Assembly: GCF_028368935.1 (NCBI RefSeq)
Contig: NZ_JAQNDK010000002.1
Coordinates: 1,426,001 to 1,490,000, forward strand
Length of the DNA stretch: 64,000 bases
Reading direction: 5' to 3'
From: Sorangium aterium
GTDB lineage: Bacteria > Myxococcota_A > Polyangia > Polyangiales > Polyangiaceae
Translations under genes and position numbers: made by a program
Part shown: piece by piece, positions 6,396-52,335 of the stretch
How positions within the stretch are numbered: position 1 is the first letter of the stretch
How the letters are laid out: every line of letters begins with the position of its first letter
Notes under the pieces: model-generated
Told to the model about the DNA's origin: nothing
The model's database searches: none
The model's input: only the letters and a program-made list of their open reading frames with translations

Positions 6396-8066
6396 TCACG
6401 GCAGCATCAGGACGCACTCGGTCCGGCAGATCGGGGCGGAGCCGCCGGCGCTGATCTCCTCGCAGATGGTCCGGATGGTCGCGCCGGGAGGGCAGGTGGC
6501 TCCCTCCACGCACTCGATCCAGCAATCACCGGGGGGGTACGCGTCGGCGCCGCCCATGCCGGTGCCGGTGCTGCTGCTGCTGCTCTCGCCGGAGCAGACC
6601 TTCTGCTCGATCATGCCAGGCGGGCAGTAGGGCTCGACGGGCACGCACTCGGTCCAGCAATCGCCGGGGTAGGGCATGCCGCCCACGCCGGTGCCAGTGC
6701 TGCCCGAGCTGCCGACAGAGACAGAGCTGCCGCCGCCGCAGACCGTCTGCGGGATGCTGTCCGGCGGGCAGTAGGGCTCGGTGGGCACGCAGTCGGTCCA
6801 GCAGCCGCCGCCGGGGTAGGGCATGCCGCCCACGCCGGTGCCGCTGCTGCTCGTGTCGGGCGTGCCGCCCTCGCAGATGGTCTGCTGGGTCGTGCCAGGC
6901 GGGCAGTAGGGCTCGACGGGCACGCACTCGGTCCAGCAGTACTCCTGGCCGGGGTACGGGCTGGCGCCGCCAGCGCCGCCGTAGCCGGTCCCGGTGCTGC
7001 CGACCGAGACCGCGCTGCCGCCGCAGACCGTCTGCGGGATGCTGTTCGGCGGGCAGTAGGGCTCCGTGGGCACGCACTCGGTCCAGCAGCCGCCGCCGGG
7101 GGGGACCGGCGCGGCAAAGCCTGGATCGGCGCCAGCGGTGTTCCCGCCGGCGCCGCCGGTGCCCGCCCAGCCGCCCGAGCCGCCGACGCCGACGCTGCTG
7201 CTGGTGACGGTGGTGCCGCCGTCGCAGTAGGTCTGCGGGGTGGTGCCGGGCGGGCAGTAGGGCGCGGTGGGCACGCACTCGGTCCAGCAGCCGCCGCCGG
7301 GGCGCGGCGCGGCGAAGTCTGAATCGGAGCCGCCGATGCCCCCGCCAGCGGTGCCCCCGCCGGTGCCCGCCCAGCCGCCCGAGCCGCCGGCGCCGCCGGT
7401 GCCCGCCCAGCCGCCCGAGCCGCCGACGCCGACACTGCTGCTGGTGACGGTGGTGCCTTCGTCGCAGAAGGTCTGCGGGGTAGTGCCCGGCGGGCAGTAG
7501 GGCTCGACGGGCACGCACTCGGTCCAGCACGGCTCGGAAGGCATCGGAATGCCGCCAGGGCCCGAGCCGCCGACGCCGACAGCGCTGCTGGCGCTGCCCC
7601 AGCCGCCGGAGCCGCCCGCGCCGCCGACGCCGACCGTCACGGAGCCGCCGCACACGGTCTGCTCGATCGTGCCCGGCGGGCAGTACGGCTGCGGCGGGAT
7701 GCACTCGGTCCAGCACTCGCCCGGATCGACGGGCATGGCGGTGCCGCCGGCGAAGCCACCCTGGCCCGAAGAGGTGGTGCCGCCGCTGCAGATGGTCTGC
7801 TCGCTCCAGTCAGCAGGACAGACGCTGTCGGGCACACACTGCTCCTCGCACATCTCGCCGATCTCGCACGGTGAACAGACCGTCTCCCAGTGAAAGCCAG
7901 GTCCGCAGTTGGGCTCCGGTGGCGGTGACGGCTCGTCCACGCCTCCACAGCCCTGCCCCTTGGCGCCGGTGAGCACAACGAGCGCGGAGAGCGCAATGAG
8001 CCCCTGGAGAGAGGAGCGAGCGGCTGACGAACGCGGGATAAGAGAGGAGAAGATCGCGAAACGCAT
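6396..8066 (-). CDS. secreted Cys-rich tandem-repeat protein
   Basis: A 556-residue exported protein of unknown function. The ATG at 8064-8066 follows GGAG at good spacing; the first ~40 residues are a signal peptide ending near a Cys (GQGCGG), so it may be lipid-anchored. The mature part consists of nine related units. Most start CWTECVP and continue with PYCPPG, then Q(T/K)xC, separated by Gly/Ser/Thr linkers rich in GVGGSGGW-like sequence. Each unit therefore carries about four Cys, presumably disulfide-paired outside the cytoplasm. Linker length varies between units, and units 3 and 4 are nearly identical, which points to recent internal duplication. No enzyme motif is visible. It may be a cell-surface or matrix protein; that is inference. 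Confidence 0.8.
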   Translation of the reverse strand: MRFAIFSSLIPRSSAARSSLQGLIALSALVVLTGAKGQGCGGVDEPSPPPEPNCGPGFHWETVCSPCEIGEMCEEQCVPDSVCPADWSEQTICSGGTTSSGQGGFAGGTAMPVDPGECWTECIPPQPYCPPGTIEQTVCGGSVTVGVGGAGGSGGWGSASSAVGVGGSGPGGIPMPSEPCWTECVPVEPYCPPGTTPQTFCDEGTTVTSSSVGVGGSGGWAGTGGAGGSGGWAGTGGGTAGGGIGGSDSDFAAPRPGGGCWTECVPTAPYCPPGTTPQTYCDGGTTVTSSSVGVGGSGGWAGTGGAGGNTAGADPGFAAPVPPGGGCWTECVPTEPYCPPNSIPQTVCGGSAVSVGSTGTGYGGAGGASPYPGQEYCWTECVPVEPYCPPGTTQQTICEGGTPDTSSSGTGVGGMPYPGGGCWTDCVPTEPYCPPDSIPQTVCGGGSSVSVGSSGSTGTGVGGMPYPGDCWTECVPVEPYCPPGMIEQKVCSGESSSSSTGTGMGGADAYPPGDCWIECVEGATCPPGATIRTICEEISAGGSAPICRTECVLMLP

Positions 8067-8440
8067 GGGGTACTCCATCCTGCGTGCCTGTGCGAGACAC
8101 GCGATCAAGGAACGATGGCTCTGCGCCGCGGCATGCGGAGCGCTGCTGCGCGCGGCGTCTCAGCGCCGACTCGAAGAGCTCGCGTCGAGATAAAGCACTG
8201 GACATGCCAGGCGCGCCCGCCTGCTCGGTCGGGTTTCCGGCCCCGGAGCGACGTGTACCGGCCGGCTTTTCGCGGTCGCGCGGCGTCCGCTGCGCGCAAC
8301 CGCACGGCGCGACAGGGCCACAGTGTGACGGGGAGCGCTGGCTACGTGTCACGTTGAGCCAACCGGCGCCGCAGGGGGTGCCGGCAGGCAAGCGGATGGA
8401 GTGATGGCGGAATTTTCCTCTTGAGTGACCTGGGATGCCC
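8067..8440. other. intergenic region, no gene supported
   Basis: This is the upstream region of the Cys-rich repeat gene. Open frames here are antisense or extension artefacts without coding character. No promoter could be assigned with confidence. The minisatellite array begins at its right end. Confidence 0.5.
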
Positions 8441-8784
8441 CGACCCAGGTTGAGGTTCGGCCGGGTGGTAACCCGGTGGTAACCCGACCCAGGTTGAGGT
8501 TTGGATGACCCGACCCTGGAGGACCTGGATGCCCCGACCCAGGTTGAGGTTCGGCCGGGTGGTGACCCGACCCCCTGACCCGACCCAGGTTGAGGTTTGG
8601 ATGCCCCGACCCTGGAGGACCTGGATGCCCCGACCCAGGTTGAGGTTCGGCCGGAGGTTCGGCCGGGTGGTGACCCGACCCCCTGACCCGACCCAGGTTG
8701 AGGTTTGGATGACCCGACCCTGGAAAGCCCGACCCAGGTTGAGGTTCAGGTTCGGGGAGGCGGTCGATCCGACCCAGGTTGAGG
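8441..8784. repeat. intergenic minisatellite array 1, core CGACCCAGGTTGAGG(T)
   Basis: Eight copies of CGACCCAGGTTGAGG(T) start at 8441, 8485, 8535, 8581, 8631, 8689, 8730 and 8770. They are interleaved with shorter relatives (CGACCCTGGA, GGTGACCCGACC). Copies 2-6 form a higher-order repeat: 8485 to 8581 and 8535 to 8631 are both 96 bases apart, and the next step is 108 bases with a 12-base insertion. The array fills the gap between the end of leuD and the upstream region of the Cys-rich gene. An open frame runs through it but is not coding. Related arrays occur at 14993-15052 and 22261-22368. Confidence 0.85.
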
Positions 8785-8852
8785 AGGTGCTTGAGGTTGA
8801 GGTGCTTGCTCGCGCGCCCCAGGTTGGGGCAGCGCCCCGCTCGAGCGCGGAG

Positions 8853-9470
8853 CTACTGCGCGGAGGCGGGCCGCACGTAGGGCAGCCGCGCCGCCACCTG
8901 CTGGACCTCCGAGGCCCCCTCGAGCAGCTGGGCGATCGGATCCCACGTGCCCCGGATCAGCGACTCGCGCGCGCCCGGCTTGATGGTGAAGGGCACCGTG
9001 AGATCGCTCCCGGCCCGGATGACCTGCCCCTGCAGGTCGACCGTGACGGGCGTCTTCGGGTCGGCGTTCACGCGCGCCACGAGCGCGGCGCGGTCCTCCC
9101 GGCTCACCGAGACGCAGGGGATGCCGAGCGTCGTCGAGTTGCCGAAGAAGATCTCGGCGAAGCTCTCGGCGATGACGGCCTTGAAACCCGCCTTCGCGAT
9201 CGACTGCGGCGCGTGCTCGCGCGACGACCCGCAGCCGAAGTTGCGGTCGGCGATCAGCACCGTCGCGCCCGCGAAGCGCGGGTCGTTCAGCGGGTGCTCC
9301 CGCTTCTCGCCCCGCTCGTCGAAGCGCACGTCCCGGAAGAGGTGCTCGCCGATGCCGTCGAAGGTGACGCACTTCAGGAAGCGCGCCGGGATGATGCGGT
9401 CCGTGTCGATGTCGTCCCCCGGAACGTGAACGGCGCGACCGGTGACGGATTGAATCAAATCGAGTGCCAT
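8853..9470 (-). CDS. leuD: 3-isopropylmalate dehydratase small subunit
   Basis: A 205-residue small (swivel-domain) subunit of isopropylmalate isomerase, which converts 2- to 3-isopropylmalate in leucine synthesis as a heterodimer with LeuC. The family blocks are clear: a DDIDTDRIIPARF-type motif near residues 19-31, and FGCGSSREHAP in the first half, which positions the substrate carboxylate. Length matches the family. It starts 27 bases after the leuC stop on the same strand, so the two form an operon. Downstream lies the minisatellite array. Confidence 0.96.
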   Translation of the reverse strand: MALDLIQSVTGRAVHVPGDDIDTDRIIPARFLKCVTFDGIGEHLFRDVRFDERGEKREHPLNDPRFAGATVLIADRNFGCGSSREHAPQSIAKAGFKAVIAESFAEIFFGNSTTLGIPCVSVSREDRAALVARVNADPKTPVTVDLQGQVIRAGSDLTVPFTIKPGARESLIRGTWDPIAQLLEGASEVQQVAARLPYVRPASAQ

Positions 9471-9497
9471 TGGGATCTCCCTCGGGTGCGAGCGTCG

Positions 9498-10907
9498 TCA
9501 GATTCCGAACACGTCACGAGCGTCGGCGATCTCGCCGCGGACGGCGGCAGCCGCGACCATCACCGGGCTCATGAGCACGGTGCGCCCGGTGGGGCTCCCC
9601 TGCCTGCCCTTGAAGTTGCGGTTGGACGAGGACGCGCACAGCTCATCCCCGATGAGCTTGTCGGGGTTCATCGCCAGGCACATCGAGCAGCCCGGCTCGC
9701 GCCACTCGAAGCCCGCCTCGCGGAAGACCCGGTCCAGCCCCTCGGCCTCGGCCGCGCGCGCCACCTCCATCGACCCCGGGACGGCCAGCGCGCGCACGTG
9801 CGGCGCGACCTTGTGCCCCTGGATGCGCCGCGCCACCTCCCGGAAATCGGAGATGCGGCCGTTCGTGCAGCTGCCGATGAACGCCACGTTGATCTTCGTC
9901 CCCTCGATCGGCTTGCCGCCCTCGAGCCGCATGTACTCGAGCGCCTCGCGGATCAGCGCCCGCTCGGACTCGTTCGCCACGTCCTCGGCCGCCGGGACCC
10001 TCTCCTTCACCGAGATCGCCTGCCCCGGCGTGATGCCCCAGGTGACCGTCGGCGCGATCTCGCTCGCGTCGATCCGGACGACGTCGTCGTAACGCGCGTC
10101 CTCGTCGGAGGCGATCGAGCGCCAGTACTCGAGCGCCTTGTCCCACGCCTCGCCCTTCGGCGCGTACGGACGCCCCTTGATGTACTCGAACGTCGCCTGG
10201 TCAGGGTTCACATAGCCGACCCGGGCGCCGCCCTCGATCGACATGTTGCACAGGGTCATCCGCTCCTCCATCGAGAACCCCTCGATGGTCGACCCGCCGT
10301 ACTCGTACGCGTAGCCCGTGCCGCCGGACACCCCGAGCCGGCGGATGATCTCGAGGATGATGTCCTTCGCGTAGACGCCCGGCCCGAGCTTGCCCTCCAC
10401 CTGGATCCGCCGGACCTTGAGCCGCTGGAGGCTCAGCGTCTGCGTGGCGAGCACGTCGCGCACCTGCGTCGTCCCGATCCCGAACGCGATCGCGCCGAAC
10501 GCGCCGTGCGTCGACGTGTGCGAGTCGCCGCACGCGATCGTCATGCCCGGCTGCGTGAGGCCGAGCTCGGGGCCGATGATGTGCACGATGCCCTGCCGCC
10601 CCGACTCGAGATCGAAGAACGTGACGCCCTGCTCGGTGCACGCCTTCTTGAGCGCGTCGACCATCCCCTCGGCCAGCGTGTCCTTGAACGGCCGCTTGCG
10701 GTTGTCGGTCGGGACGATGTGATCGAGGGTCGCGAACGTCCGCTCGGGCATGCTCACCCGCAGGCCGAGATCGCGGAGCATCCCGAACGCCTGGGGGCTC
10801 GTCACCTCGTGGATCAGGTGAAGGCCGATGAAGAGCTGATCCTCGCCGCTCGGCAACGTGCGGACTTTGTGGAGGTCCCAAACCTTGTCATAGAGACTCT
10901 TACCCAT
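9498..10907 (-). CDS. leuC: 3-isopropylmalate dehydratase large subunit
   Basis: A 469-residue aconitase-family catalytic subunit. The [4Fe-4S] ligands are visible as Cys347 (FIGSCTNGR), Cys407 and Cys410 (GCSMC); the substrate-channel block [12 protein letters not shown] lies at about 128-138. The ATG at 10905-10907 ([10 protein letters not shown]) is the natural family start; an upstream in-frame extension to 11000 is not conserved-looking. It is the first gene of leuCD. A LysR-type gene starts divergently 232 bases upstream, the classical arrangement for a pathway-specific regulator, so leucine-pathway control by that protein is likely but inferred. Confidence 0.96.
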
Positions 10908-11094
10908 GATGGCCTCTCGCGGTGCGCTGGAATCGGGTGAAGGGGGGTGAAGGGGGACGGCGTGCGAAGCGAAGCGGACCAGCCCGAGCGCCGCAGCCAC
11001 GGCGCGCCGGCAGCCTCGTTGGAGGCGTCCGGCGCGCCGCCGGTCTGGCGGTCCAACGTCGGGCGGGCGGCATGACTATGCGGGCGCGAGAGGA

Positions 11095-11131
11095 TTAAGT
11101 CGAATGAAACTTTTTTCACGATCGGTTAAGT
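11095..11131. promoter_or_regulatory. putative control region between leuC and lysR-type gene
   Basis: A conspicuously AT-rich patch in an otherwise GC-rich gap. It holds a direct repeat TTAAGT (11096-11100 region and 11126-11131) and a dyad TGAAA-N4-TTTCA (11105-11118), close to the T-N11-A type of LysR-family site. It ends just before the LysR ATG at 11140, so it could be the autoregulatory operator and the lysR promoter. Assignment is from position and symmetry only. Confidence 0.35.
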
Positions 11132-11139
11132 AAAACTAC

Positions 11140-12051
11140 ATGGACGCGTCGCTGCTCCCCGCGCTCGAGGATGTGCTCATGGTGGCCCGGTCGGGCTCGG
11201 TCGCCGAGGCGGCGCGGCGGCTGCACAAGACGCCGTCGGCGATCAGCCAGCAGGTGCGGCGGGTGGAGGAGCGCTTCGGGGTGGCGCTGTTCGAGCGCGA
11301 CGGGCGCGGCGTGCGGCTGAGCCCGGCCGGCGAGGCGGCGCTCGGCGCGATCACGCGGCTGTTCGACCAGGCGGAGGGGGTGTTCGAGCTGCTCTCGGAG
11401 CTGGCGGGGGAGCCGTCGACGACCCTGCGCGTGGCGGCGAGCGACTACCTCGGCAAGGGGCTGCTCGTGCCGGTGATCCGCCAGATGCTCGAGAAGCGCG
11501 CGCCGGTGCGGTTCGCGATCACGACGGCGAACTCGGTCGACGCCGCGCGGGGGGTAGAGCGCGGCGAGGTGGATCTGGGCCTCGCGTCGGCGTCCTCGGC
11601 GGGCGGCGACCTCGTGAAGCAGCCGCTGTTCGTGCAGCCGTTCCTCTGGGTAGGGCCGCGGCTCAAGGGCTCGGCGCCGGCGCTGCGCGAGCGGCTCCGG
11701 CACGAGCCGCTGCTCCGGCTGGCGCCCGGCAGCGTGGGGCGGCGGATGCTCGACGCGTACCTGGATCGCGAGCGGATCCGGCCCATCTCGACGATCGACG
11801 TGTCGAGCGTGTCGCTCCTCGTCTCGTACGTCTCCGGCGGGCTCGGCATCGGCCTCGCGCCGGCGCTCGCGCTGACCGAGGTCGCGCGCTCGCGGCTCGA
11901 CGTCGAGGTCGCGGAGGTCGACCCGCTGCCCGTCGAGCTGATGACGCGCGAGAATTTCCGGCGCAATCCGATCATCGAGCGCTTCGTCGAGCGGCTCGCC
12001 GCCGAGGGGCGCCGCGCGGAGCAGCGGACGCGCGCGCTCCTCGGCGGCTGA
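11140..12051 (+). CDS. LysR-family transcriptional regulator
   Basis: A 303-residue DNA-binding regulator. The winged helix-turn-helix occupies residues 1-60 (SVAEAARRLHKTPSAISQQ, then RRVEERFGVALFER), followed by the periplasmic-binding-like effector domain (about 90-300), including the usual GGLGIGLAP block. Divergent placement beside leuCD suggests it responds to a leucine-pathway intermediate, as many LysR proteins regulate the adjacent divergent operon; the effector cannot be read from sequence. The start lies behind an AT-rich patch with a dyad (11105-11118). Confidence 0.92.
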   Translation: MDASLLPALEDVLMVARSGSVAEAARRLHKTPSAISQQVRRVEERFGVALFERDGRGVRLSPAGEAALGAITRLFDQAEGVFELLSELAGEPSTTLRVAASDYLGKGLLVPVIRQMLEKRAPVRFAITTANSVDAARGVERGEVDLGLASASSAGGDLVKQPLFVQPFLWVGPRLKGSAPALRERLRHEPLLRLAPGSVGRRMLDAYLDRERIRPISTIDVSSVSLLVSYVSGGLGIGLAPALALTEVARSRLDVEVAEVDPLPVELMTRENFRRNPIIERFVERLAAEGRRAEQRTRALLGG

Positions 12052-12183
12052 CGCCGCGCGAGGCGCGCCGCCGCCCGTCAGGTGGACGGGGTGCGACACG
12101 ATGACTCGCCCCGTCGACAAGAGCGTGCGCCCCGGGGCGCAACAGGGGTGGTCGGCGCGGCCGGCGCGGCCGGCCTGCGTGGC

Positions 12184-13728
12184 TCAGGGCTCGCGCGTGT
12201 TGCCGCGCGTGTCCTTCAGCATCACGTCGTGGACGCCGCCCTCGTGGATGCTCACCGCGGACGCGACGGTCAGGCGGGCGCGCATGTACAGGTCGCGCAG
12301 CGAGGTGGCGCCGCAGTTGCACATCGTCGAGCGCACCTTGGCCAGGGTGACGTCGAGGTTGTCCTTCAGCTTGCCGGCGTACGGCACGTAGCTGTCGACG
12401 CCCTCCTCGAACTCCAGCTGATCCTTCTTCTTGCTGGTATCGCCGTGGTCGTAGCGCTGCCAGTTGCGCGCGCGGTTGCTCCCTTCACCCCAGTACTCCT
12501 TCATGAACTGGTTGTTCACGCGGACCTTGCGCCCGGGCGACTCGTCGAAGCGCGCGAAGTAGCGGCCCATCATGACGAAGTCGGCGCCCATCGCGAGGGC
12601 GATCGTGATGTGGTAGTCCTGGCTGATGCCGCCGTCGGAGCAGATCGGCACGTAGACTCCGGTCCGCTGGAAGTACTCGTCGCGCGCCTTGGCCACCTCG
12701 ATCACGGCCGACGCCTGGCCGCGGCCGATCCCCTTCTGCTCGCGCGTGATACAGATGGATCCGCCGCCGATGCCGACCTTGACGAAGTCGGCGCCCGCCT
12801 CGACCAGGTAGAGGAAGCCCTCGCGATCGACGACGTTGCCGGCGCCGACATAGGCCGGCTTGCCGAGCGACTTCACGAAGGCGATGGTGTCGCCCTGCCA
12901 CTCGGAGTAGCCGTCCGACGAGTCGATACAGAGCACGTCGGCGCCCGCCTCCACCAGCGCCGGCACGCGATCTCTGTAGTCGCGCGAGTTGATGCCGGCG
13001 CCGACGATCAGGCGCTTCTCGTGATCCACGTTCTCGAGCGGGTGCGCCTGGTGCGACTCGTAGTCCTTGCGAAACACCAGGTACTGGAGGTGCTGTCGCT
13101 CGTCGATGACGGGCAGGGTGTTGAGCTTGTGACGCCAGATGAGCTCGTTCGCCTCCTGCAGATCGAGGCCGACCTTGCCGCAGTGGATCGACTTGAACGG
13201 CGTCATGATCTCGCGCACCGGCGTGCTGAGCGGCGTCTTGCCGAGCCGGTAATCGCGGCTCGTGATGATGCCGACGAACCTGCCCGTGGGCGTGCCGTCC
13301 TCGGTGATCGCAATCGTGGAGTGGCCCGTGCGATCGGTGAGCTCGAGGACGTCGCCGAGCGTCGCGTCGGGGCGCAGGTTCGAGTCGCTCACGACGAACC
13401 CTGCCTTGTAGTTCTTCACGCGCCGCACCATGGCGGCTTCCTCCTCGATGCCCTGCGAGCCGTACACGAACGACAGGCCGCCGCAGCGCGCGAGCGCGAT
13501 CGCGAGGTCGGCGCCCGAGACCGACTGCATCATCGCGCTGGTGACCGGCACGCTCATCGTGAGCGGCGCGAGCCTCGGATCTGGCGGCGTCGCGCCCGGA
13601 TCGGCCTTGAACCGGACGACAGGGGCCGTGAGATCGACGTTCGCCGGGACGCAGTCCTTCGTCGTCAGATTCGGGACGAGCAGGTACTCGCCAAACGTCC
13701 TGCTCGGCTCATCGTAGATGAATGCCAT
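12184..13728 (-). CDS. guaB: IMP dehydrogenase
   Basis: A 514-residue enzyme oxidising IMP to XMP with NAD in guanine nucleotide synthesis. The (beta/alpha)8 barrel is interrupted by two CBS domains (about residues 110-230; [17 protein letters not shown] and [12 protein letters not shown] are visible). The catalytic Cys is Cys326 in [10 protein letters not shown]; the usual bacterial loop reads GPGSICTTR, so this belongs to a less common loop variant. The GAGINSRDY and [10 protein letters not shown] blocks and the mobile-flap region ([15 protein letters not shown]) are present. The C-terminus carries a cysteine-containing [12 protein letters not shown] block. It stands alone, convergent with the LysR gene. 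Confidence 0.92.
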
Positions 13729-13940
13729 GTCGGCTCCTAGTGCAAGGATCCCCGGCTGTCAAACACGAGCGGCGCCGTTCTCCCGGGAAAGTCGTGTAAT
13801 ATCGATGGTTTGCGGGGGCAACGGCGGGCCTGGAAGGGCGGCGCGAGGCGCGAGGCGACAGGGGCCCGGCCGCCCGCCAGCGTCGCGGCGAGGCGGTGCA
13901 GGAGCCCGGGCGGGATGACCGGGCTCCCTGGGGGGCGGAG

Positions 13941-14906
13941 CTAGAGCGGGCGCACCGGCAGGCAGAGCTCGCAGCGGAAGCTGTTGGTCTTGGGATCGTG
14001 GAACTCGCCCTGGTAGAGCTCGAAGCAGGGCCGGTGATCGGGCTGATAGCCGCTCTCAGGGAGCCACCTGCCGAAGAGCTGGTCCCAGGCGGCGCCGATC
14101 GTGTGCGCCTCGCCGAGGAACGCGCCCGCGGCGTACTTGCCGCCGGCGACGTCGGTCACGTTGACGTCGCCGTCCGCCTTGAAGTCCTGCGGGATCACGA
14201 TGGCGGCGTCGAGGCGGCACTTGGCAGGCTCGGTGACCTTGGGGTTGTCGTGCGCGATGTTGAGGCAGATGCGGTCCGGGGTCCACAGATCGCGGGCGCT
14301 GGCCCAGCGCACGAGCCGCTGCCAGGCCTCGTCGACGCTCCCTCCCGGGCCGTAGGGGCCGACGCATCGGACATAGGCCACGTGGTAGCTCGGCAGGGTC
14401 TTCACGGTCACGTTCATGATCTCCTCCTCGTCTTGGCGGGCGTCCGCGCCCGACGAGGAGGCATCTTGGTAGGGCGCGCAGACCGCTGCTTTGCACGGAT
14501 TGCGCTCGACTTCACCCGGCTTGCGATCCGCTTGCCCCGCCTTGCGCGCGTCCGTGGCGCCGCCGTTGCGCCAGGCGGACGCGCTCATGCCGAAGCGCTC
14601 CTTGAAGGCGCGCGCGAAGGCGCTCGCCGAGCCGAAGCCGTTCTCGAGGGCGATCTCGAGGATGTCGGCGCGCGGCCGCTGCACGAGGTGGCTCGCAGCG
14701 GTCTCGAGGCGCGTCCGCTGGATGAACTCGCGAAGGTTCTCGCCCGTCATGGACTTGAACACGCGGTGGAAGTGAAACGGCGAGAACGCCGCCACGGCCG
14801 CCAGCGTGTCGAGGGAGAGGTCCTCCGCGCGGTGGGCCTGGATGTAGTCGATCACGCGGTTGACCCGCCGCTGGTACTCGGCGCGGCTCCTGTCGGACGT
14901 TGCCAC
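13941..14906 (-). CDS. AraC-family regulator fused to a GyrI-like effector domain
   Basis: A 321-residue one-component regulator. Residues ~12-115 form the double helix-turn-helix AraC DNA-binding domain (LSLDTLAAVAAFSPFHFHRVFKSMTG-type start, then IALENGFGSASAFARAFKERFG). A polar linker follows, then a GyrI-like small-molecule-binding domain from about 160 to the end (starting VTVKTLPSYHVAYVRCVGPY). N-terminal AraC plus C-terminal GyrI is the Rob/BltR-like layout that senses hydrophobic drugs or dyes. No partner operon is obvious; the next gene upstream (DUF4185) is on the same strand beyond a minisatellite. Confidence 0.88.
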   Translation of the reverse strand: MATSDRSRAEYQRRVNRVIDYIQAHRAEDLSLDTLAAVAAFSPFHFHRVFKSMTGENLREFIQRTRLETAASHLVQRPRADILEIALENGFGSASAFARAFKERFGMSASAWRNGGATDARKAGQADRKPGEVERNPCKAAVCAPYQDASSSGADARQDEEEIMNVTVKTLPSYHVAYVRCVGPYGPGGSVDEAWQRLVRWASARDLWTPDRICLNIAHDNPKVTEPAKCRLDAAIVIPQDFKADGDVNVTDVAGGKYAAGAFLGEAHTIGAAWDQLFGRWLPESGYQPDHRPCFELYQGEFHDPKTNSFRCELCLPVRPL

Positions 14907-14992
14907 GGGCGGAGGGTACCTGATGGATGGTCGCAGAAAAAAGGGCCTCGGCCGCGACCGCGCCCAGGTTGGGAGGGGCGCCCGGCACCCGA

Positions 14993-15052
14993 CTCAACGT
15001 GGGTCGGGTCGCCTCAACGTGGGTCGGGTCGCCTCAACGTGGGTCGGGTCGC
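14993..15052. repeat. intergenic minisatellite array 2, inverted orientation
   Basis: Three exact head-to-tail copies of the 20-base unit CTCAACGTGGGTCGGGTCGC. Read in reverse complement this is GCGACCCGACCCACGTTGAG, a variant of the GACCCAGGTTGAG core of arrays 1 and 3 (one base differs). A lone CGCCCAGGTTGGG relative lies at about 14971. The array ends two bases before the stop codon of the DUF4185 lipoprotein gene and fills the gap to the AraC-GyrI gene. Confidence 0.8.
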
Positions 15053-15054
15053 CT

Positions 15055-16182
15055 CTACTCGAGCTCCAGCTCGACGAGCCGGATCTCCCCCTCCAGGAAC
15101 CCCGTCTCCCGGAAGTACGTCATGTACTCCACCCGCTCTCCTTCCCGCGCGAGCTCCGCGTGCACGAGGGCGGCATAGGGCCACGCATCCGGCGTAGGCG
15201 GGACCTCGGCGGTGAGAACCACCGCGCTGTCCGACCAGGGCCCCTCCGGCGCCGGAGCCGTCCGGATCGAGATCTCCGACGATACCGGCTCGCTGTACAG
15301 CGCGATGTACCTGCCGACATGCTCATTCCAATGCACCGACATCATCGGTGCCCCCGCCATGACCGGCTCCGCCTCACCATGGCCCTTCACCCAGCGCTCG
15401 TCCGAGAAGAACCGCCACGCGTCGCGCTCCGTTGCCTCCGCGAGCGGGGCGCGCGCGACGATGCACGGGCACGTGAGACCCGAGCACGCGCAGGCATAGG
15501 CGTAGAGCATCCCCTCGCGGACGAGCGCCGCCGACGTGAGCAAGGGCTCATCCGCGCCGAAGAGGAGCGTCGGATCCGCAGCGCCCGGGCGCACCTCCGG
15601 GCGTGCGGGGGGCGCGTCGAGGCTCTCCCAGACAGCGATGGACGAACCCAGCATGTCGACTTCGAACGCCCCGGCCCCGAGTCGCCCCGTCACCTTGCTG
15701 TAGAAGACGAGCGCACGGCCGGTCGCCTCGTCGACGACGATGGGGCCCGGCCACAGCGCATAGCGCGCTCCGCAGTCCTCCTCGCACGTCTCCTCCGAAC
15801 GAGGGTCGGAGTGCTCGAGGTTGAACGCGAGCTCCTCCTCGGTGAACGGCAGGAACTCCCGCGGCGCGCCGTCCGCGTCGAGCGGCTCGGTGAGCGACGA
15901 GAGCCCATCCGACGCATCCAGATCGTCGGTCGCGCAGAAGGTGCTCGACCTCCAGAGCGCCCCGTCTTCCCCCGGCATCTCCAAGGTCGTGTCGCCGAAC
16001 ACCCACACCGATCGGTCGCCCCACCGCGCGCTGTAGCCGCCGTCCCGCCCTCGGATCGCCGGGGCAAACTCCAGCGCGCCCAGGTCGCGCACCGCGCGCA
16101 CCGCGGCCTCGGGCGCCTCCTCGCCACACCCGGCGCACAGGAGAGCGAACCCGGCGGCTCCCATGGTCCTTCGATAACGCAT
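15055..16182 (-). CDS. DUF4185-type lipoprotein
   Basis: A 375-residue exported protein. The ATG at 16180-16182 gives a short positively charged start, a hydrophobic run and a lipobox-like end at Cys19 (LLCAGC). An in-frame extension upstream to 16284 has no signal character. The mature part shows repeated blades such as SVWVFGDTTLEMPG, ALWPGPIVVDEATGRALVFYSKV and PMMSVHWNEHVGRYIALYSEP. These fit the beta-propeller DUF4185 family related to GH43/GH32-like folds. No confirmed activity exists for this family; a carbohydrate-related surface role is plausible. Four Cys (CSGLTCPC, ETCEEDC) suggest disulfides. Confidence 0.75.
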   Translation of the reverse strand: MRYRRTMGAAGFALLCAGCGEEAPEAAVRAVRDLGALEFAPAIRGRDGGYSARWGDRSVWVFGDTTLEMPGEDGALWRSSTFCATDDLDASDGLSSLTEPLDADGAPREFLPFTEEELAFNLEHSDPRSEETCEEDCGARYALWPGPIVVDEATGRALVFYSKVTGRLGAGAFEVDMLGSSIAVWESLDAPPARPEVRPGAADPTLLFGADEPLLTSAALVREGMLYAYACACSGLTCPCIVARAPLAEATERDAWRFFSDERWVKGHGEAEPVMAGAPMMSVHWNEHVGRYIALYSEPVSSEISIRTAPAPEGPWSDSAVVLTAEVPPTPDAWPYAALVHAELAREGERVEYMTYFRETGFLEGEIRLVELELE

Positions 16183-16383
16183 GCGCGCGAGGGTACCATG
16201 GGGAGCCTGAACGCCGCCGCCGTCGGCGTCGCTCCGCTGCCGGACTACACGCGACGGGGGCGCCGGCGGGCCCCGCGCGCACAAGGGCTCTGGCGCAGAG
16301 GATGGCGGCGATCCGCAAGAGGCGAGGAGAGCTACTCCGCTGATCGGTTCGCGGTCTGGAGGACGGCGATGCCTCCGCCGCTG

Positions 16384-16722
16384 TCAAATCTGCCTGCAGG
16401 CGGCAGCGCAGCGGCGGCACTCGTCAGCGCACGTCTTCATCTGCATATCCCCAGTGAGCTTATCGCAGCTCGCCGCGCACTGCTCGCAGAGGCTGGCGCA
16501 CACGCTCATCATCTGGGGGATCTGGGGCGAGCTGCGCAGGAGGAGCTTCGAGGTCGCCTCGCAGATATCGGCGCAGTCCTGGAGCATCCGCATGTGCGTG
16601 GCGCTCACGTGAGAGCCTCCCATCTCGAGGCAATACTGAGCCGCGTGCGTGCAGATCGAGCTACAATCCTGGGTGAACCGGGCCACCTCCCGGAACGATC
16701 TGTCCCCCGGAAACTTGATCAT
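16384..16722 (-). CDS. Cys-rich four-helix protein, copper-storage (Csp/DUF326) type
   Basis: A 112-residue protein with 13 Cys arranged as CX3C, CX2C and CX6C pairs along amphipathic helices: C20/C24/C31, C50/C54, C75/C79/C82/C86 and C98/C102/C105/C109. This is the signature of the DUF326/Csp family, cytosolic or exported four-helix bundles that fill their core with Cu(I) thiolates. No signal peptide is seen with the chosen start (MIKFPGDRSF), so it would be a cytosolic Csp3-like store. The ATG has a strong GGGGGG ribosome-binding sequence. A longer in-frame extension upstream is rejected. The upstream neighbour is a ferritin-like protein, so the two may both serve metal handling (inference). 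Confidence 0.8.
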   Translation of the reverse strand: MIKFPGDRSFREVARFTQDCSSICTHAAQYCLEMGGSHVSATHMRMLQDCADICEATSKLLLRSSPQIPQMMSVCASLCEQCAASCDKLTGDMQMKTCADECRRCAAACRQI

Positions 16723-17000
16723 GAGAACCCCCCTTGATCCAACCGGCCGCCCCTCGCCGCGAGGGAGCCTCGCGACAAGGCGGCAACTTCGGTATCTGGA
16801 GGGTGCATGGATTCGATGGCTTTCGCATGTCGGGCCATCCCGTAAATGGGCCTCGGAACAGCGACCGACGCCGAGACCGCCGTGCCCTCGAGCGCGCCTC
16901 GCGAACAGCCGGGACGCCGCGAGACATGCGCGAACGCCCCGCCCGAACCGCTGGTCCCGCCCTGGTCGCTCCCTCCGCGCAACGCGGCGACACAACGTGG

Positions 17001-17168
17001 CTCTACTGCGGGAAGTTGCCCCGGCTCGGCAGAAAAACCGCCAAGCCGCCAAAGACGCCAAGGGGAGAGGGGGAAGGGGGCCGTCCGGGCATCCCCCTAT
17101 TCCCCGGTTCTCTTGGCGCCCTTGGCGGCTTGGCGGTTCGCTTCCCCGGCCGACTTGCCGCAGTAGAG
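17001..17168. repeat. long imperfect foldback element (~170 bp)
   Basis: Two arms face each other. The outer 11 bases CTCTACTGCGG (17001-17011) pair exactly with 17158-17168. The inner 17 bases AACCGCCAAGCCGCCAA (17036-17052) pair exactly with 17122-17138, and the sequence between is partly complementary (GACGCCAAGGGGAG against the CTCTTGGCGCCC side). The loop is about 40 bases, purine-rich (GGGGGAAGGGGG). It begins directly after the stop codon of the ferritin-like gene (minus strand), upstream of the Csp-like gene. It could be a MITE-like mobile element or a REP-type transcript-end structure. Confidence 0.75.
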
Positions 17169-17169
17169 C

Positions 17170-17835
17170 TTAGCACCCAGGCGCGCGGCAGATACCCATC
17201 TTCAGGCGCGCGATCTCCTGGAGCTCCTCGGCGATCTCGAGCGTGCGCATCGCGGCGGCGCGCGCGAGCGCCTGGGACTCCTCGGTGACCGCGAGGCGCG
17301 CGAGGAGCCGCCGGCCCATCTCGTGGTGATGGCCCTCGTCCGGCTGGATGACGTCGCGGTAGAGGCGCGCTGTCTCGGCGTCGCCTTGCGACTCGCAGTA
17401 GTCGATGAACGCCTGGTTGTGCACCTTCGCGAGCGCCTCGCGTGTGAACTGGCCCGCTGCGACGCGCTCGACCGTGGAGCCGAGCCCCTTCAAGTACCCG
17501 AACATCGGCGTGGGAGGCCCGAACTTCGCCGGGATCGCCGCGGGGTCGACGCCGAGCGCGCGGAGGCGCTCGGCGATGAGCCGGTAATGCCTCGCCTCGT
17601 CGCCGCACTGGCGGGCGAGGGCGAGCTTCACCTCCACGTCGGTCTCGGTGGTGAGCCAGAGCGCAGCCTCCTCGGTCGCCTCGAGCTCCTTCTTGAGCGC
17701 GGTCGCGAGCAGCGCCGGGATGCCGACGCCGCTCGCCGGCTCCGCCGCGCGGGCCACGGCGCCGATGTGGGCGAGGCGCTCACCGACCTTGCGGTCGAGC
17801 TCGTCGAGGAATTCCTCTGGTTTCATGCGGGGCAT
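17170..17835 (-). CDS. ferritin-like domain protein
   Basis: A 221-residue all-helical protein. Metal-ligand-like motifs appear as EATEEAALW, GDEARHYRLIAERL (ExxH type, near residues 80-92) and QPDEGHHHEMGRR (near 166-178), the spacing expected of the ferritin-like di-iron four-helix bundle. No signal peptide. The closest families are the uncharacterised ferritin-like proteins, not ferritin or bacterioferritin themselves. The foldback element lies right after its stop. The hypothetical gene at 17906 is divergent, 70 bases away. Oxidative or metal-storage function is inference. Confidence 0.75.
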   Translation of the reverse strand: MPRMKPEEFLDELDRKVGERLAHIGAVARAAEPASGVGIPALLATALKKELEATEEAALWLTTETDVEVKLALARQCGDEARHYRLIAERLRALGVDPAAIPAKFGPPTPMFGYLKGLGSTVERVAAGQFTREALAKVHNQAFIDYCESQGDAETARLYRDVIQPDEGHHHEMGRRLLARLAVTEESQALARAAAMRTLEIAEELQEIARLKMGICRAPGC

Positions 17836-17905
17836 GATGGGCGCGCCCCGCGCGGCGGGTCAATAGGCCGCGCTTCCGGCGGCCAGGTGGGTGTACCCTC
17901 CTCGA

Positions 17906-18889
17906 ATGGCCTGGTGCTTCCTGCCGCCGTGGATCGATCTCGAGTCGGTCTCGATCTCGTTCGAGCTTCCCGCGCGCACCGTCCTGAAGCGCACCGGCGT
18001 GGCCGCGCTCGCCACGTCGAGCGCGACGGCGCTCCGCCTGACGCTCGCGCCGGCGCTCCTGCGGATCACCTTCGAGCCGTACCTCGTCATCGACCTGCCG
18101 CCGCCGCTCGGTGACATGGGGCTCCAGCAGATCGAGTACGACTTCCGTTCAGGCGCGATGACGCCCAACGTCTTTTACACGGGAGGGCTCGTCCGGGTCG
18201 GAAAGGGATCGGCGGAGGACGAGGCGCGCGCCTTCATGCGCGGACTCGTCACGTCGACGCCCATGGCCATGCCCCCGTACGACCCCACGAGCGATCCCGA
18301 TCTCGTCGTGACGGTGCGTCAGGCGCTCTCGAACCTCGAGGCCGGCAGCAGTACGGCCGTGCGGGGCGCCCGCCTGTCCGCGCGGCTGACGCTGCGCCAG
18401 GAGCTCGCTGGCGGGGTGGGCTCGGACGGGTTCCGCATTCCGACCGGCGCGACCGTCGCGGCCAGCGTCGATATCGAGGGCACCCGGCAGGAGATCGAGA
18501 CGGCGCCGCGCGTGCAGCGCATCGAGGTCGACTGTTCGTCGGCGGTGCTCCAGAAGGGGGGAGTCGACCAGGCCGATGTCCGTCGCTTCATCGTGAAGCG
18601 CGGCGGAGAGATCGCCGTCGAGCGGGTCGAGCCGCTCGGCGCGGCGCGCCAGGCCGCGGGCGCCGAGTCGCTCGTGCGCCTGTTCAGCGCCCTGGTCGCG
18701 GGCGGCGGCGTCGCGCTCGACCCGCAGCGCCTCGGGCCGAGCGTCGTGGAAGGGCTCGTCAAGGAAGAGATCGCGCGCGCCCTGCGCCCCGCGCTCGTCG
18801 GCTGGGTGCGGCAGAACGCCGACGTCGTCGTGGGGATGGACCTGCGGCAGGTGCTCGGGATACCGGCGGAGGGAGGCGACGTGGCATGA
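17906..18889 (+). CDS. hypothetical protein
   Basis: A 327-residue protein starting MAWCFLPPWIDLESVSISFE. I do not recognise the family. The N-terminal third is beta-rich, with SSATALRLTLAPALLRITF-like alternation. The middle carries repeated beta strands (ARLSARLTLRQ, TGATVAASVDIEG), and the C-terminus is helical (SVVEGLVKEEIARALRPAL). No signal peptide or membrane segment. The codon-position pattern looks like a normal high-GC gene, and a same-strand MOSC gene follows after 79 bases, so it is probably real. Confidence 0.7.
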   Translation: MAWCFLPPWIDLESVSISFELPARTVLKRTGVAALATSSATALRLTLAPALLRITFEPYLVIDLPPPLGDMGLQQIEYDFRSGAMTPNVFYTGGLVRVGKGSAEDEARAFMRGLVTSTPMAMPPYDPTSDPDLVVTVRQALSNLEAGSSTAVRGARLSARLTLRQELAGGVGSDGFRIPTGATVAASVDIEGTRQEIETAPRVQRIEVDCSSAVLQKGGVDQADVRRFIVKRGGEIAVERVEPLGAARQAAGAESLVRLFSALVAGGGVALDPQRLGPSVVEGLVKEEIARALRPALVGWVRQNADVVVGMDLRQVLGIPAEGGDVA

Positions 18890-18968
18890 GGGGCGGCGCG
18901 GGCGTTCGCGACGCGCGCTCCGTGCTTCTCCAGGCGCCGAGCGCCCGAGGGGTGTTATAAGCTACGGA

Positions 18969-19787
18969 ATGCGACTCTCCGCGATCCACATCTATCCCGT
19001 CAAAGGCTGCCGGGGCCTCACGCTCGACGCGTCCGCCGTCGACGCGCTCGGCCTCGCCGGCGATCGGCGGTTCATGATCGTCGACCCCGAGGGAAAGCCC
19101 CTCACGCAGCGCCCGCTGCCGCGCATGGCGCTCATCGAGACGCAGCTCTCCGAGAGCGCGCTCACGCTCGGCTTCGCCGGCCGGCCGCCGATCTCGGTGC
19201 CGCGCAGGGCCGAGGGCGCGCGCCTGCTCACGGTCGAGGTCTGGAGCAGCAGCGGCCTCCTGGCCGAGGATTGCGGTGACGAAGCCGCCGCGTGGCTCAG
19301 CGGCGTCCTGGATCACCCGGCGCGGCTCGTCCGCATCGGCGAGGCGTTCCGGCGGCCCGTCCTCAAGGCCTCGGTGGCAGGCACGGAAGACGTCGTGTCG
19401 TTCGCCGACGAGTTCCCGCTGCTCGTGATCTCCGAGGCCTCCCTCGCCGATCTGAACGCTCACCTCGAGGGCCGGGGCGCCGCGCCGTTGCCGATGGATC
19501 GCTTCCGGCCCAACCTCGTCGTGAGCGGCTGCGCTGCCTTCGACGAGGACCTGTGGAGCCGCGTCCGCATCGGAGACCTCGTGCTCCGCGCCGGCGGCCC
19601 GTGCGGCCGCTGCGTCGTCACCACGACCGACCAGCGCACCGCAGAGCGCGGCCCGGAGCCGCTCCGCACGCTGGCCAGCTACCGGCGCGATGCGCAGAGG
19701 CCCGGCGAGGTGAACTTCGGACAGAACTACATCCAGGAGACGAAATCCGGCACATTGCGCGTGGGGGACGAGGTGACGGTCGTGTGA
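18969..19787 (+). CDS. MOSC-domain protein (YcbX-like)
   Basis: A 272-residue protein with the N-terminal MOSC beta-barrel (residues 1-~115: AIHIYPVKGCRGLTLD, LGLAGDRRFMIVD) and the C-terminal MOSC domain (~130-272). The catalytic-type Cys lies in the block GPCGRCVVTTTDQ (Cys212/Cys215), which in MOSC enzymes carries the sulfur or binds molybdopterin. The family includes YcbX and mARC, molybdenum-dependent reductases of N-hydroxylated compounds. No ferredoxin domain is fused, so an electron donor would have to be separate. Single gene by spacing. Confidence 0.88.
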   Translation: MRLSAIHIYPVKGCRGLTLDASAVDALGLAGDRRFMIVDPEGKPLTQRPLPRMALIETQLSESALTLGFAGRPPISVPRRAEGARLLTVEVWSSSGLLAEDCGDEAAAWLSGVLDHPARLVRIGEAFRRPVLKASVAGTEDVVSFADEFPLLVISEASLADLNAHLEGRGAAPLPMDRFRPNLVVSGCAAFDEDLWSRVRIGDLVLRAGGPCGRCVVTTTDQRTAERGPEPLRTLASYRRDAQRPGEVNFGQNYIQETKSGTLRVGDEVTVV

Positions 19788-20385: not shown

Positions 20386-20417
20386 AGGGCGCGACGCTCG
20401 GCGGTGCGCTCTGCGCG

Positions 20418-21405: not shown

Positions 21406-22218
21406 TCAGGCGACGCCGTGTCGGGCCAGCCAGTCGAGCTGGCGCTGCCAGGCGTCGGCGGCGGCTTCCGGCCGGTAGCTCGGCCGGTAGTCGGCGTAGA
21501 AGGCGTGCGGGACGTCCGGGTAGACCTGGATCTCGGAGTGCGCGGCGCCGGGCGCGCTGCCGGCCTCGGAGGCGGCACGGAGCGCCTCCTGCAGCGCGGT
21601 GACCGTCGGGAGGGGGATGCCCTGGTCCTGTCCGGCGTAGAGGCCCAGCACGGGCACCTGCAGCGCGCCCGCCACGTCGATGGGGTGCCTGGGCTGGGCC
21701 TCGGTCCGATCGCCGGTCAGGCGTCCGTACCAGGCCACTGCCGCCTTGAGCGCCGGGTTGTGCGCGGCGTACAGCCACGTGATGCGCCCGCCCCAGCAGA
21801 AGCCGACCGCGGCCACCTTGCGGACGTCGGCCTTTCCGGAGGCTTGGGCGAAGGCCACGCTGGCGTCGAGGTCGGAGAGGACCTGCCGGTCGGGTACGCG
21901 GCCCGCCAGAGCGCGGAACTCATCGACGGTGTGGAGGTGGCTCGGATCGCCTTGCCGAACGAACAGATCCGGGGCGAGGGCGTAGTAGCCGCGGTGTGCG
22001 AGGCGGCGGACCACGTCGCGGATGTGCTCGTGGACGCCGAAGATTTCCTGGATCACCAGCACCAGAGGAAAGGGGCCACCGGAGGCGGGGTGGGCGCGGT
22101 AGCCGGGGAGGTCACCCGCGGGCGCGGGAAGGGTGATCGCGCCTGCGATGAGTCCGGCGTCGTCGGTGTGGATGGGCTTCGGAGCGTTGCTCTCGGCGAT
22201 GGGCGTGGAGGCGGTCAT
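21406..22218 (-). CDS. dienelactone hydrolase family protein (Cys nucleophile)
   Basis: A 270-residue alpha/beta hydrolase. The triad reads Cys141 (GFCWGG), Asp198 (AGQDQG) and His238 (VPHAFYADYRP). The substrate-gating glutamate block QEIFGVHEHIRDV is at about 57-69. This is the classical carboxymethylenebutenolidase pattern, used to open dienelactones in aromatic breakdown, although many family members have other substrates. The ATG at 22216-22218 is right; the frame extends upstream only because it runs through the minisatellite, which translates to an artefactual APQPGS repeat. A second, Ser-type homologue lies upstream at 22386-23237. Confidence 0.88.
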   Translation of the reverse strand: MTASTPIAESNAPKPIHTDDAGLIAGAITLPAPAGDLPGYRAHPASGGPFPLVLVIQEIFGVHEHIRDVVRRLAHRGYYALAPDLFVRQGDPSHLHTVDEFRALAGRVPDRQVLSDLDASVAFAQASGKADVRKVAAVGFCWGGRITWLYAAHNPALKAAVAWYGRLTGDRTEAQPRHPIDVAGALQVPVLGLYAGQDQGIPLPTVTALQEALRAASEAGSAPGAAHSEIQVYPDVPHAFYADYRPSYRPEAAADAWQRQLDWLARHGVA

Positions 22219-22260
22219 GGCGGGCGCCCAGCAGCCTCCGTGCCATGGGCGCGACCGACC

Positions 22261-22368
22261 CGACCCGGGTTGGGGAGCCGACCCAGGTTGAGGAGCCGAC
22301 CCGGGTTGAGGAGCCGACCCAGGTTGAGGTGCCGACCCAGGTTGAGGAGCCGACCCAGGTTGAGGTGC
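22261..22368. repeat. intergenic minisatellite array 3, 18-bp period
   Basis: Six head-to-tail units of 18 bases start with CGACCC at 22261, 22279, 22297, 22315, 22333 and 22351. Unit form is CGACCC(A/G)GGTTGAGG(A/T)GC. The array lies between the end of one dienelactone-hydrolase-like gene and the start of the next, on the minus strand. Same core and same strand as array 1 (8441-8784). Confidence 0.9.
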
Positions 22369-22385
22369 CGGCGGTGGAGCCGCAG

Positions 22386-23237
22386 CTACCCCGCCGCGCG
22401 CACACCCTCGCCGGCGACTGCCTGCGGCCGCCACTGCGCGACGTTGCCGGTGCGCTCGGCGAAGAATTCCCGCGTGCGCCGCCACGAGAGCTGCGCCGCG
22501 TCGGCGTGGTACGCCGGCCGCGTCTCGTTGAAGAACCCGTGGCGCGTCCCAGGGTACACGAACGAGATCAGCTCTCGCCCCGCAGCCCTGAACGCCTCCC
22601 CCACCGCTGGCGCCCTCGGGGTGATCGCCGGATCGTCCTCCGCATAATGCACCTGCAGCGGAAATCGCACGTTCCTCACCTGCTCCAGGGCCGGCGCCTG
22701 CCCATAGAACACAGCGCCCGCCGCGAGCTCCACGCCTGCGACCGCGAGCTGCCCCACGAGCCCGCCGCCCAGCGAGAACCCGACGGCGGCGACGCCCCCC
22801 GACCGCACGTCCGACCGGCCGACGAGGTGCGCCGCCGCCGCCCTCGCGTCGGACAGGTAGGTCGACGTGTCGCGGCTACCGAACCAGGCGAACACCTTCT
22901 TCAGCCGCTCCTGTTCGTCCGCCGGCAACCGCGCGACCACCTCGTCGCGGTCGGCGGCGCGCAGCAGGCTCACCCCCCGGGCCACCTCCGCCTCGGTGAA
23001 GGTCCGGTGCGTCGTGTCGTGCGAATACAGGTTCGGCGCAAACGCGATGTACCCTTCCTGCGCGAAGCGCCTCGCCAGCTCGATCGTATGGACCGTGAGC
23101 CCCAGCCCCTCGTGGAGGATCAGCACCGCCGGCGCCGGCGAGCGCCCGCCCGACGCCGGGCGGACCTGCACCGCCTCCACCGGCCCGTGGGGCCCCTCGA
23201 ACGACGTCCTCTCGACGCCTGTGCTCGCGGCGCTCAT
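22386..23237 (-). CDS. dienelactone hydrolase family protein (Ser nucleophile variant)
   Basis: A 283-residue alpha/beta hydrolase. The nucleophile is Ser155 in GFSLGG, replacing the Cys of the classical enzyme; the acid is Asp201/Asp202 (AEDDPA) and the base His233 (TRHGFFNETRPAY). The N-terminal block LHEGLGL replaces the usual QE(I/W)FG. Its ATG overlaps the TGA of the TauD-type dioxygenase (ATGA, 23234-23237), so the two are translationally coupled and probably act in one degradative route; the substrate is unknown. Confidence 0.85.
   Translation of the reverse strand: MSAASTGVERTSFEGPHGPVEAVQVRPASGGRSPAPAVLILHEGLGLTVHTIELARRFAQEGYIAFAPNLYSHDTTHRTFTEAEVARGVSLLRAADRDEVVARLPADEQERLKKVFAWFGSRDTSTYLSDARAAAAHLVGRSDVRSGGVAAVGFSLGGGLVGQLAVAGVELAAGAVFYGQAPALEQVRNVRFPLQVHYAEDDPAITPRAPAVGEAFRAAGRELISFVYPGTRHGFFNETRPAYHADAAQLSWRRTREFFAERTGNVAQWRPQAVAGEGVRAAG

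Positions 23238-48232: not shown

Positions 48233-52335
<4,103 letters not shown>

Follow-up and report, generated by a model that had tools for sequence, protein, structure and literature searches.

The minisatellites that are dispersed through Sorangium genomes and built around one conserved core are read here, with somewhat better than even confidence, as a REPtron/TIRtron-like system, in which the core is the repeat going with a divergent multicopy RAYT-like HUH transposase of Sorangium. The transposase-like gene, the predicted fold of its product and the inverted core arms around it together lead to this reading. Since the same core flanks this gene of the RAYT kind in mirror orientation, the arrays are probably putative recognition sites of the gene that have grown into minisatellites.

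The window, a stretch of 64,000 nucleotides of the Sorangium aterium genome (G000; 13.47 Mb, 7 contigs), contains three arrays of the core, and the gaps in which they lie are bounded by minus-strand genes on both sides (Table 1). Array 1 has eight exact GACCCAGGTTGAG cores at 8442-8783 (+), array 2 has three copies of GACCCACGTTGAG at 14993-15045 (-), with one mismatch to the motif of the preliminary description, and array 3 has six copies of GACCC[A/G]GGTTG[A/G]G at 22262-22364 (+), five of them exact. The eight cores reported for array 1 and the two further arrays of the same core with 20- and 18-bp periods are thus all present. The window holds 22 core matches with up to two mismatches, against 3.8 expected (100 shuffles, maximum 8). 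The core-to-core steps of array 1 are 44, 50, 46, 50, 58, 41 and 40 bp, and the distances between every second core are 94, 96, 96, 108, 99 and 81 bp. The two-core higher-order repeat that had been described with a 96/108-bp super-period is therefore real but loose, at 94-108 bp, with the last distance at 81 bp. The leuD-like and leuC-like genes are presumptively so named from their domain pair. Genes were called with a caller built for this analysis and trained on this genome, which scores RAYT-like genes low and missed the one at C2:1561940, and so some gaps counted as intergenic may hide such genes.

Table 1. Core arrays and neighbouring genes of the window, with RAYT-like gene copies and GCAACCGAC-type arrays found elsewhere in sampled DNA. 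Positions are those of the window unless a contig or block is named.
Feature	Position	Strand	Remarks
Array 1: eight CCGACCCAGGTTGAG cores	8441..8784	+	3' of leuD-like gene; core antisense to genes
Degenerate core GCCCCAGGTTGGG, 2 mismatches	8816..8828	+	trails array 1
Array 2: three CCGACCCACGTTGAGGCGAC units, 20 bp	14993..15055	-	abuts stop codon of DUF4185 gene
Degenerate core, 3 mismatches	14959..14973	+	beside array 2, on the other strand
Array 3: six CCGACCC[A/G]GGTTG[A/G]GG[A/T]G units, 18 bp	22260..22370	+	between two dienelactone-hydrolase-like genes
Gene flanking array 1 opposite the leuD-like gene	6396..8078	-	no Pfam match
leuD-like gene, aconitase C-terminal domain	8853..9470	-	flanks array 1
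leuC-like gene, aconitase-family	9498-10907		beside leuD-like gene
Gene with AraC-type HTH and GyrI-like domain	13941..14906	-	array 2, start-codon side
DUF4185 gene	15055..16182	-	stop codon abuts array 2
Dienelactone hydrolase family gene	21406..22218	-	array 3, start-codon side
Dienelactone hydrolase family gene	22386..23237	-	stop codon 21 bp from last core of array 3
RAYT-like copy, G000	C7:77789-78706		
RAYT-like copy, G000	C2:1561940-1562842		
RAYT-like copy, G000	C1:1710183-1711100		
RAYT-like copy, G000	C1:1320886-1321785		
RAYT-like copy, G000	C6:787762-788661		more distant copy
GCAACCGAC-type array (L071)	C2 block 6523-6556		
GCAACCGAC-type array (L171)	C3 block 57241-57330		
GCAACCGAC-type array (L151)	C7 230383-230439		

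The conserved core is 15-16 bp long and sharply bounded, with the consensus CCGACC[C/g][A/g]GGTTG[A/g]G(g), and the linkers, spacing and copy number are particular to each array. Alignments anchored on GGTTG recover CCGACC at 83-93% per position and those anchored on CCGACC recover GGTTG at 84-88%, with information dropping at both edges (motif-selected regions, averaged per array; 92 and 90 arrays for the two anchors). The two halves form an imperfect inverted repeat, YCRACC-NN-GGTTG, whose centre is CA in 395, CG in 127, GA in 53 and GG in 17 of 601 copies and whose stem of 4 bp is worth -3.0 kcal/mol or weaker by RNA parameters. There is no conserved GT[AG]G tetranucleotide, or foot, beside the core, and GGGGWSAS is absent from its consensus. 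In 73 of the 79 arrays with three or more cores, all cores lie on one strand and run head to tail.

Exact copies of GACCCRGGTTGAG and CGACCGRGGTTGAG number 60 and 45 in the 13.47-Mb genome, with 0 for each reversed control. These 105 copies fall at 25 sites. The earlier view of the arrays as one family, scattered mainly between genes and varied in period around a single core, is supported. Two or more exact copies lie at 18 of the sites and a single one at seven; six of the latter were inspected, of which two have degenerate neighbours, one has an inverted partner and three stand alone (no intact core within 250 bp on the same strand), two of these three in called genes. Contigs C3 and C4, which make up 3.7 of the 13.5 Mb, have no exact GACCCRGGTTGAG, though there are 60 elsewhere, and C4 has two CGACCGAGGTTGAG copies. 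Five other Sorangium genomes have 48, 13, 120, 148 and 68 copies of GACCCRGGTTGAG. Of 183 genomes of the order, 9 contain tandem pairs of CCGACCSRGGTTGAG, namely all six Sorangium genomes and three of the 177 others (G034, G030 and G080); the arrays of G034 have the same core and other linkers. Single exact copies in other relatives are found in 10 of 33 genomes, near the level of the reversed control (6 of 33), with the exception of G034, which has 10 copies. A scan of bacterial genome contigs for exact GACCCRGGTTGAG pairs gave 62 stretches, 60 of them in Sorangium; the other two (L017 and L054) look unrelated by eye and were rejected as members. The scan of viral contigs gave no matches.

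A word count over 126 merged intergenic tandem arrays in a 1.264-Mb sample of the genome placed core 12-mers in five arrays, tied with a second family and with a shuffled maximum of 4, and words of 9 and 10 letters showed no excess over GC-rich words. This sample is not blind, in that its C2 block surrounds the window and C7 was known to hold copies, and its C3 and C4 pieces come from contigs without exact copies. A second minisatellite family, made of ACGACCACG and ACGTTTACGTGGTCGT modules, lies on contig C7 at 347547-509059 (loci L157-L165), with six intergenic arrays in about 160 kb, all on C7 among the stretches sampled. A 9-bp unit of the GCAACCGAC type occurs in three arrays on three contigs and is possibly a third small family. 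No published description of the core repeat was recognised in literature searches, which mostly covered sources other than subscription journals; the words 'Sorangium' and 'Myxococc' do not occur in the main texts of PMC6006769, PMC3733652 and PMC12306157, and 'tandem' is absent from PMC3696898.

The multicopy gene beside the arrays encodes an HUH tyrosine-transposase-like protein of the RAYT kind with 306 residues. It was found through corresponding array pairs between species, as two of the first 25 pairs rested solely on this gene and were dropped for that reason. A tblastn search of the sampled stretches of six genomes places it at about 20 sites, fragments included. All 15 aligned copies match the NCBIfam model NF047646 for REP-associated tyrosine transposases (best 4.8e-18), the bit scores of two copies being 49 and 53, under the curated cut-off of 80. 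H60, H62, Y120, N124 and P125 are invariant in all 15 copies and make up HuH and Y---NP motifs, which are those of class 2 TnpA_Y1 (PMC6006769). No Pfam transposase family matches up to an E value of 10, and PF01797 was not found. A PDB sequence search with the alignment has 4er8 as its sole match up to E 1 (E 0.008). An AlphaFold model built on the 15-sequence alignment (mean pLDDT 73.8) has as its best structure match 4er8, a TnpA_REP with a REP hairpin (E 4.7e-6, TM 0.74 by target), followed by IS200/IS605 transposases. In So ceGT47 the gene is in two pieces about 1.4 kb apart (L065:3-674 and 2126-2296), apparently split by an insertion. Two divergent copies, L203:7289-8179 (So0157-2 387289-388179) and L103:7063-7962, are 41% and 65% identical to L064, respectively, and may have repeats of their own.

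The cores around this gene are arranged as inverted arms. Across 15 copies with both flanks, cores with up to two mismatches within 600 bp of the gene number 60 on the + strand and 2 on the - strand upstream, and 47 on the - strand and 11 on the + strand downstream; the reversed consensus has two matches in the same flanks. Both arms are present and point inwards in 11 of the 15 copies. The last + core precedes the gene by 116-210 bp in 12 of 13 copies, and the first - core follows it at 129-512 bp in 11 copies. The downstream side lacks inverted cores in L109 and L016, and cores are missing altogether from L103 and So0157-2 387289, the two copies that diverge most. When the 416 called genes of 600-1400 bp in the G000 blocks were screened for such arms, a single gene had them, namely the RAYT-like copy C7:77789 itself, whose contig was known beforehand to hold cores. 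Most gene copies came from loci chosen for their cores, and so the association between core and gene is inflated; of the copies not chosen by cores, two (C2:1561940 and So0157-2 150787) are flanked by both arms and one (So0157-2 387289) lacks cores.

The stretches C7:77571-78800 and C2:1561721-1562951 are 98.1% identical over 1232 bp, so one unit with the gene has moved or been copied recently. On its left this unit starts at a core-like site, and it stops some 0.1 kb past the gene, short of the inverted cores downstream. The same neighbours that bound the gap of array 2 enclose + cores, a RAYT-like gene and - cores in So0157-2, and the gap in this genome has one degenerate + core and three - cores. 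The degenerate core corresponds to the upstream arm in So0157-2, and array 2 thus looks like the remnant of a RAYT module. In So0008-312 another gap has two cores, and its So0157-2 counterpart holds the gene and long arrays between matching neighbours.

A gene copy lies within 1.5 kb of at least 20 of 93 core clusters, which is a lower bound because the loci end at the edges of the examined pieces. At least 73 of the 93 have no copy within that distance in the sampled DNA, the moved unit lacks the downstream arm, and two divergent copies are without cores, as would be expected if the gene merely lands in core arrays and the core is kept by another host protein as a multivalent binding platform or a tandem-amplification signal. 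We consider this explanation unlikely, because the arms are inverted, point inwards and are similarly spaced, which random landing in head-to-tail arrays would not produce; a gene that landed within one array would have cores of the same strand to its left and right.

A cluster matches one beside a similar gene in another species in 42 of 93 cases, and at least 31 of the 93 match on two or more genes, so that many arrays are inherited and expand again where they stand. The independent local expansion supposed in the preliminary description is half right in this respect. In a strict set of 21 nearest-gene pairs, which cover 30 clusters and are not independent of one another, the orientation is kept in 20 pairs and a core-plus-linker unit is common to none. 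Sharing of linker 6-mers is 0.151 in strict pairs (n=11) and 0.115 between unrelated arrays (n=2461; p=0.06), and it was 0.127 in the earlier set of 25 pairs (p=0.17). Ordinary short gaps align between G000 and So0157-2 with a median of 80% (30 gaps), and non-family control arrays in gaps conserved in So0157-2 number four, too small a set. The gap of array 1 has arrays in G000, So0157-2 and a MAG and no core array in the other three Sorangium genomes. That of array 3 is occupied by arrays in G000, So0157-2 and So0008-312, with linkers that differ among them, and no close ortholog of the flanking gene exists in the other three Sorangium genomes. The G000 gaps that match those of two So0157-2 arrays contain no array. 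Within arrays, a shared linker goes with a shared core in 278 of 349 cases, and a shared core goes with a shared linker in 278 of 908. The linkers vary in length and 46 of the 64 arrays with at least three linkers repeat one, unlike CRISPR arrays, whose spacers are unique and nearly constant in length.

These data also bear on whether the arrays are neutral minisatellites, whose core would be common by descent only and would have spread by slippage and recombination. Minisatellites between genes are common apart from this family (126 merged arrays in 1.264 Mb), copies at the edges of arrays have decayed further than those inside (0.89 v 0.53 mismatches, p 0.001), and the linkers of strict pairs are slightly more alike than those of unrelated arrays, all of which fit such an origin. 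It is nevertheless improbable, since concerted evolution should alter core and linker alike, the strict pairs share no unit, and the inverted arms around a transposase gene are left unexplained.

Quite improbable, too, is a typical IS200/IS605-type insertion sequence with subterminal hairpins, of which the arrays would be decayed ends. The HUH fold, the multicopy gene and its one recent copy agree with this, but the invariant Y---NP of the protein is not the Y---Q that marks IS200 transposases (PMC6006769), the other gene copies compared in this genome are just 72-81% identical, and the arrays are far more dispersed than the gene in the sampled DNA.

The genomic setting of the arrays is intergenic without being tied to gene ends. 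All 38 copies of GACCSRGGTTGAG in the 1.264-Mb sample have another within 150 bp, and 34 of them are intergenic, where intergenic DNA makes up 20% of the bases. The 79 arrays of six genomes comprise 31 in gaps between tandem genes, 14 in divergent gaps, 9 in convergent gaps, 18 at the edge of the examined piece and 7 in called genes. The 54 intergenic arrays with both called neighbours visible compare with 59, 29 and 12% of intergenic bases in tandem, divergent and convergent gaps, respectively. The orientation of arrays relative to genes is the same in 18 and opposite in 13. Of the 31 arrays in tandem-gene gaps, 21 lie closer to the stop than to the start, the medians being 65 bp to the stop and 154 bp to the next start. 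Since neither gene ends nor orientation are preferred, the stop-codon adjacency described for the window is a local coincidence: it holds for array 2, which abuts a stop codon, and for array 3, at 21 bp, and not for array 1, where 69 bp separate the last core from the leuD-like stop codon. No pattern of 10.5-bp helical phasing is visible by eye, and the replication-strand bias at 20 So0157-2 loci is 11 v 9 by eye, assuming an origin at 0 and a terminus half way.

An RNA-level element at gene ends, such as a terminator or 3' UTR signal, is very improbable and a stop-codon or terminator role was rejected on gap classes and orientation, since divergent gaps hold 14 of the 54 arrays and orientations stand at 18:13, even though each window array lies after a stop codon, 21 of 31 arrays in tandem-gene gaps are nearer the stop and the + strand of array 3 folds better as RNA than shuffles (z -4.9), the other five strand folds having z between -2.2 (array 1 +, with array 1 represented by its first 145 bp) and +0.4 and window positions 8000-23000 having no Rfam match. 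A tRNA search of the window found none, and as DNA the window arrays fold no better than shuffles.

The three window arrays lie strictly between minus-strand genes, as had been described, and this is not general: five arrays lie in frame inside convincing open frames. All 36 core steps of these five are multiples of three, compared with 198 of 476 steps in intergenic arrays; L094 and L109 have weak gene calls and were left out of this count. The core is read as PTQVE, STWVG, PQPGS, STSVG or LNPGP, and the constraint acts on the DNA. An origin at the peptide level was rejected because frame and strand differ between genes. Three of the four coding arrays scanned (L013 left out) have Pfam matches, namely a polyketide synthase, a von Willebrand-A protein and a PD-(D/E)XK protein named AddB-like here. 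In the polyketide synthase of So ceGT47 (L061:1-3858), eight core units form a tandem TSTSVG/TSTWVG peptide; the array lies between the acyltransferase and ketoreductase regions. Among the coding arrays the AddB-like one (L085) is the least secure. Three AddB-like orthologs cover the linker, and in two of them, from GT47 and So0157-2, it carries repeat-like sequence of another kind. Among the AddB-like orthologs (L205, L207-L210), the repeat-like sequence in the same inter-domain linker differs between Sorangium species. If insertions in genes survive only in frame, the arrays would be mostly intergenic, as found.

Among known systems, compared here with the available parts of the papers cited, REPtrons (RAYT/TnpA_REP with REPs; PMC2817692, PMC6006769) are alike in the HUH-Y1 protein, the Y---NP motif and the fold, in a gene flanked by inverted repeats, and in repeats that are dispersed, extragenic and clustered. 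In-frame insertions of REPs in flexible protein regions have been reported (PMC6006769), which the coding arrays of the Sorangium core fit. Unlike REPs, the Sorangium core has no GT[AG]G foot and a weak palindrome, and it forms head-to-tail minisatellites with array-specific linkers; the Sorangium protein differs in having 306 residues and several copies per genome. The long subclasses 2.1 and 2.3 are reported without REPs, and atypical foot-less repeats are reported for subclass 2.6 and class 3 (PMC6006769). BIMEs alternate in orientation (PMC2817692), whereas 73 of 79 Sorangium arrays run head to tail. TIRtrons (TIRYT with terminal inverted repeats; PMC3733652) are alike in being RAYT relatives flanked by non-GTAG inverted repeats; their host species have no GTAG repeats, and their TIRs can form dispersed families in dimers or clusters (PMC3733652). 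Many TIRs, not all, have GGGGWSAS (PMC3733652), which the Sorangium core does not, and the available text of PMC3733652 holds no description of minisatellite growth. Several observations speak against the REPtron reading: the GT[AG]G foot is absent, the palindrome is weak, NF047646 scores are under the cut-off, no Pfam transposase is matched, the moved unit stops short of the downstream inverted cores, some gene copies are core-less, and no gene copy was found near arrays 1 and 3 in the sampled stretches of this genome or in the 19 kb examined of G034, though G034 has arrays.

Minisatellites with the Jeffreys core (PMC2782130) are alike in that dispersed arrays of different units embed a core some 15 bases long, and this core gave the impression of a sequence that drives tandem repetition. 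They are eukaryotic and have another core, and the available text describes no transposase, so the likeness is one of behaviour only. The GGGNATC repeats of Xanthomonas and Nostoc and the TAACTGA repeats of Beggiatoaceae (PMC4692102 and PMC4679880 as a pair) are, in the parts available, likewise dispersed tandem repeats mostly in non-coding DNA of bacteria. Both have a fixed 7-bp unit, in contrast to Sorangium steps of mostly 15-60 bp. GGGNATC, a G4 repeat, is under-represented between divergent genes, whereas 14 of 54 Sorangium arrays lie there, against 29% of intergenic bases; TAACTGA lies mostly just upstream of starts, whereas the Sorangium median is 154 bp from the next start.

A plausible mechanism for the REPtron/TIRtron-like system can be outlined. 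The RAYT-like protein may recognise the core as single-stranded DNA and nick or rejoin it, as TnpA_REP does REPs, and arrays without a gene would then be its non-autonomous offspring or leftovers. Tandem growth may proceed by slippage, by unequal exchange or by the protein itself. The cores would be retained because recognition or amplification is limited to units that carry one, or because the host uses them, and the linkers would be passengers. There is also the possibility, which we regard as tentative and rather doubtful, that a RAYT/TIRYT-type protein multiplies its core head to tail besides dispersing it, so that a domesticated single-strand transposase makes and renews minisatellites. 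If so, a family of shared-core minisatellites would gain a known enzyme, and one of the long RAYT subclasses, for which no repeats have been reported so far, would turn out to make them.

Why dispersed minisatellites have a common core is an old question, for which Sorangium offers a candidate enzyme with several copies per genome and six species whose arrays can be matched by their neighbours. The REPtron reading would extend these systems to myxobacteria, where the repeat either has lost the GT[AG]G foot or never possessed it. The arrays offer typing markers for an important producer genus, and they bring the caution that tandem peptides in linkers of large enzymes, as in one polyketide synthase, can stem from a repeat at the DNA level.

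Two further repeats of the window lie apart from the core family. A 402-bp tandem repeat of 4.8 copies occupies 48561-50501 within a long minus-strand open frame. Many repeats with a 15-bp period run along minus-strand open frames at 27129-29872, as might be guessed for pentapeptide-repeat-like proteins.
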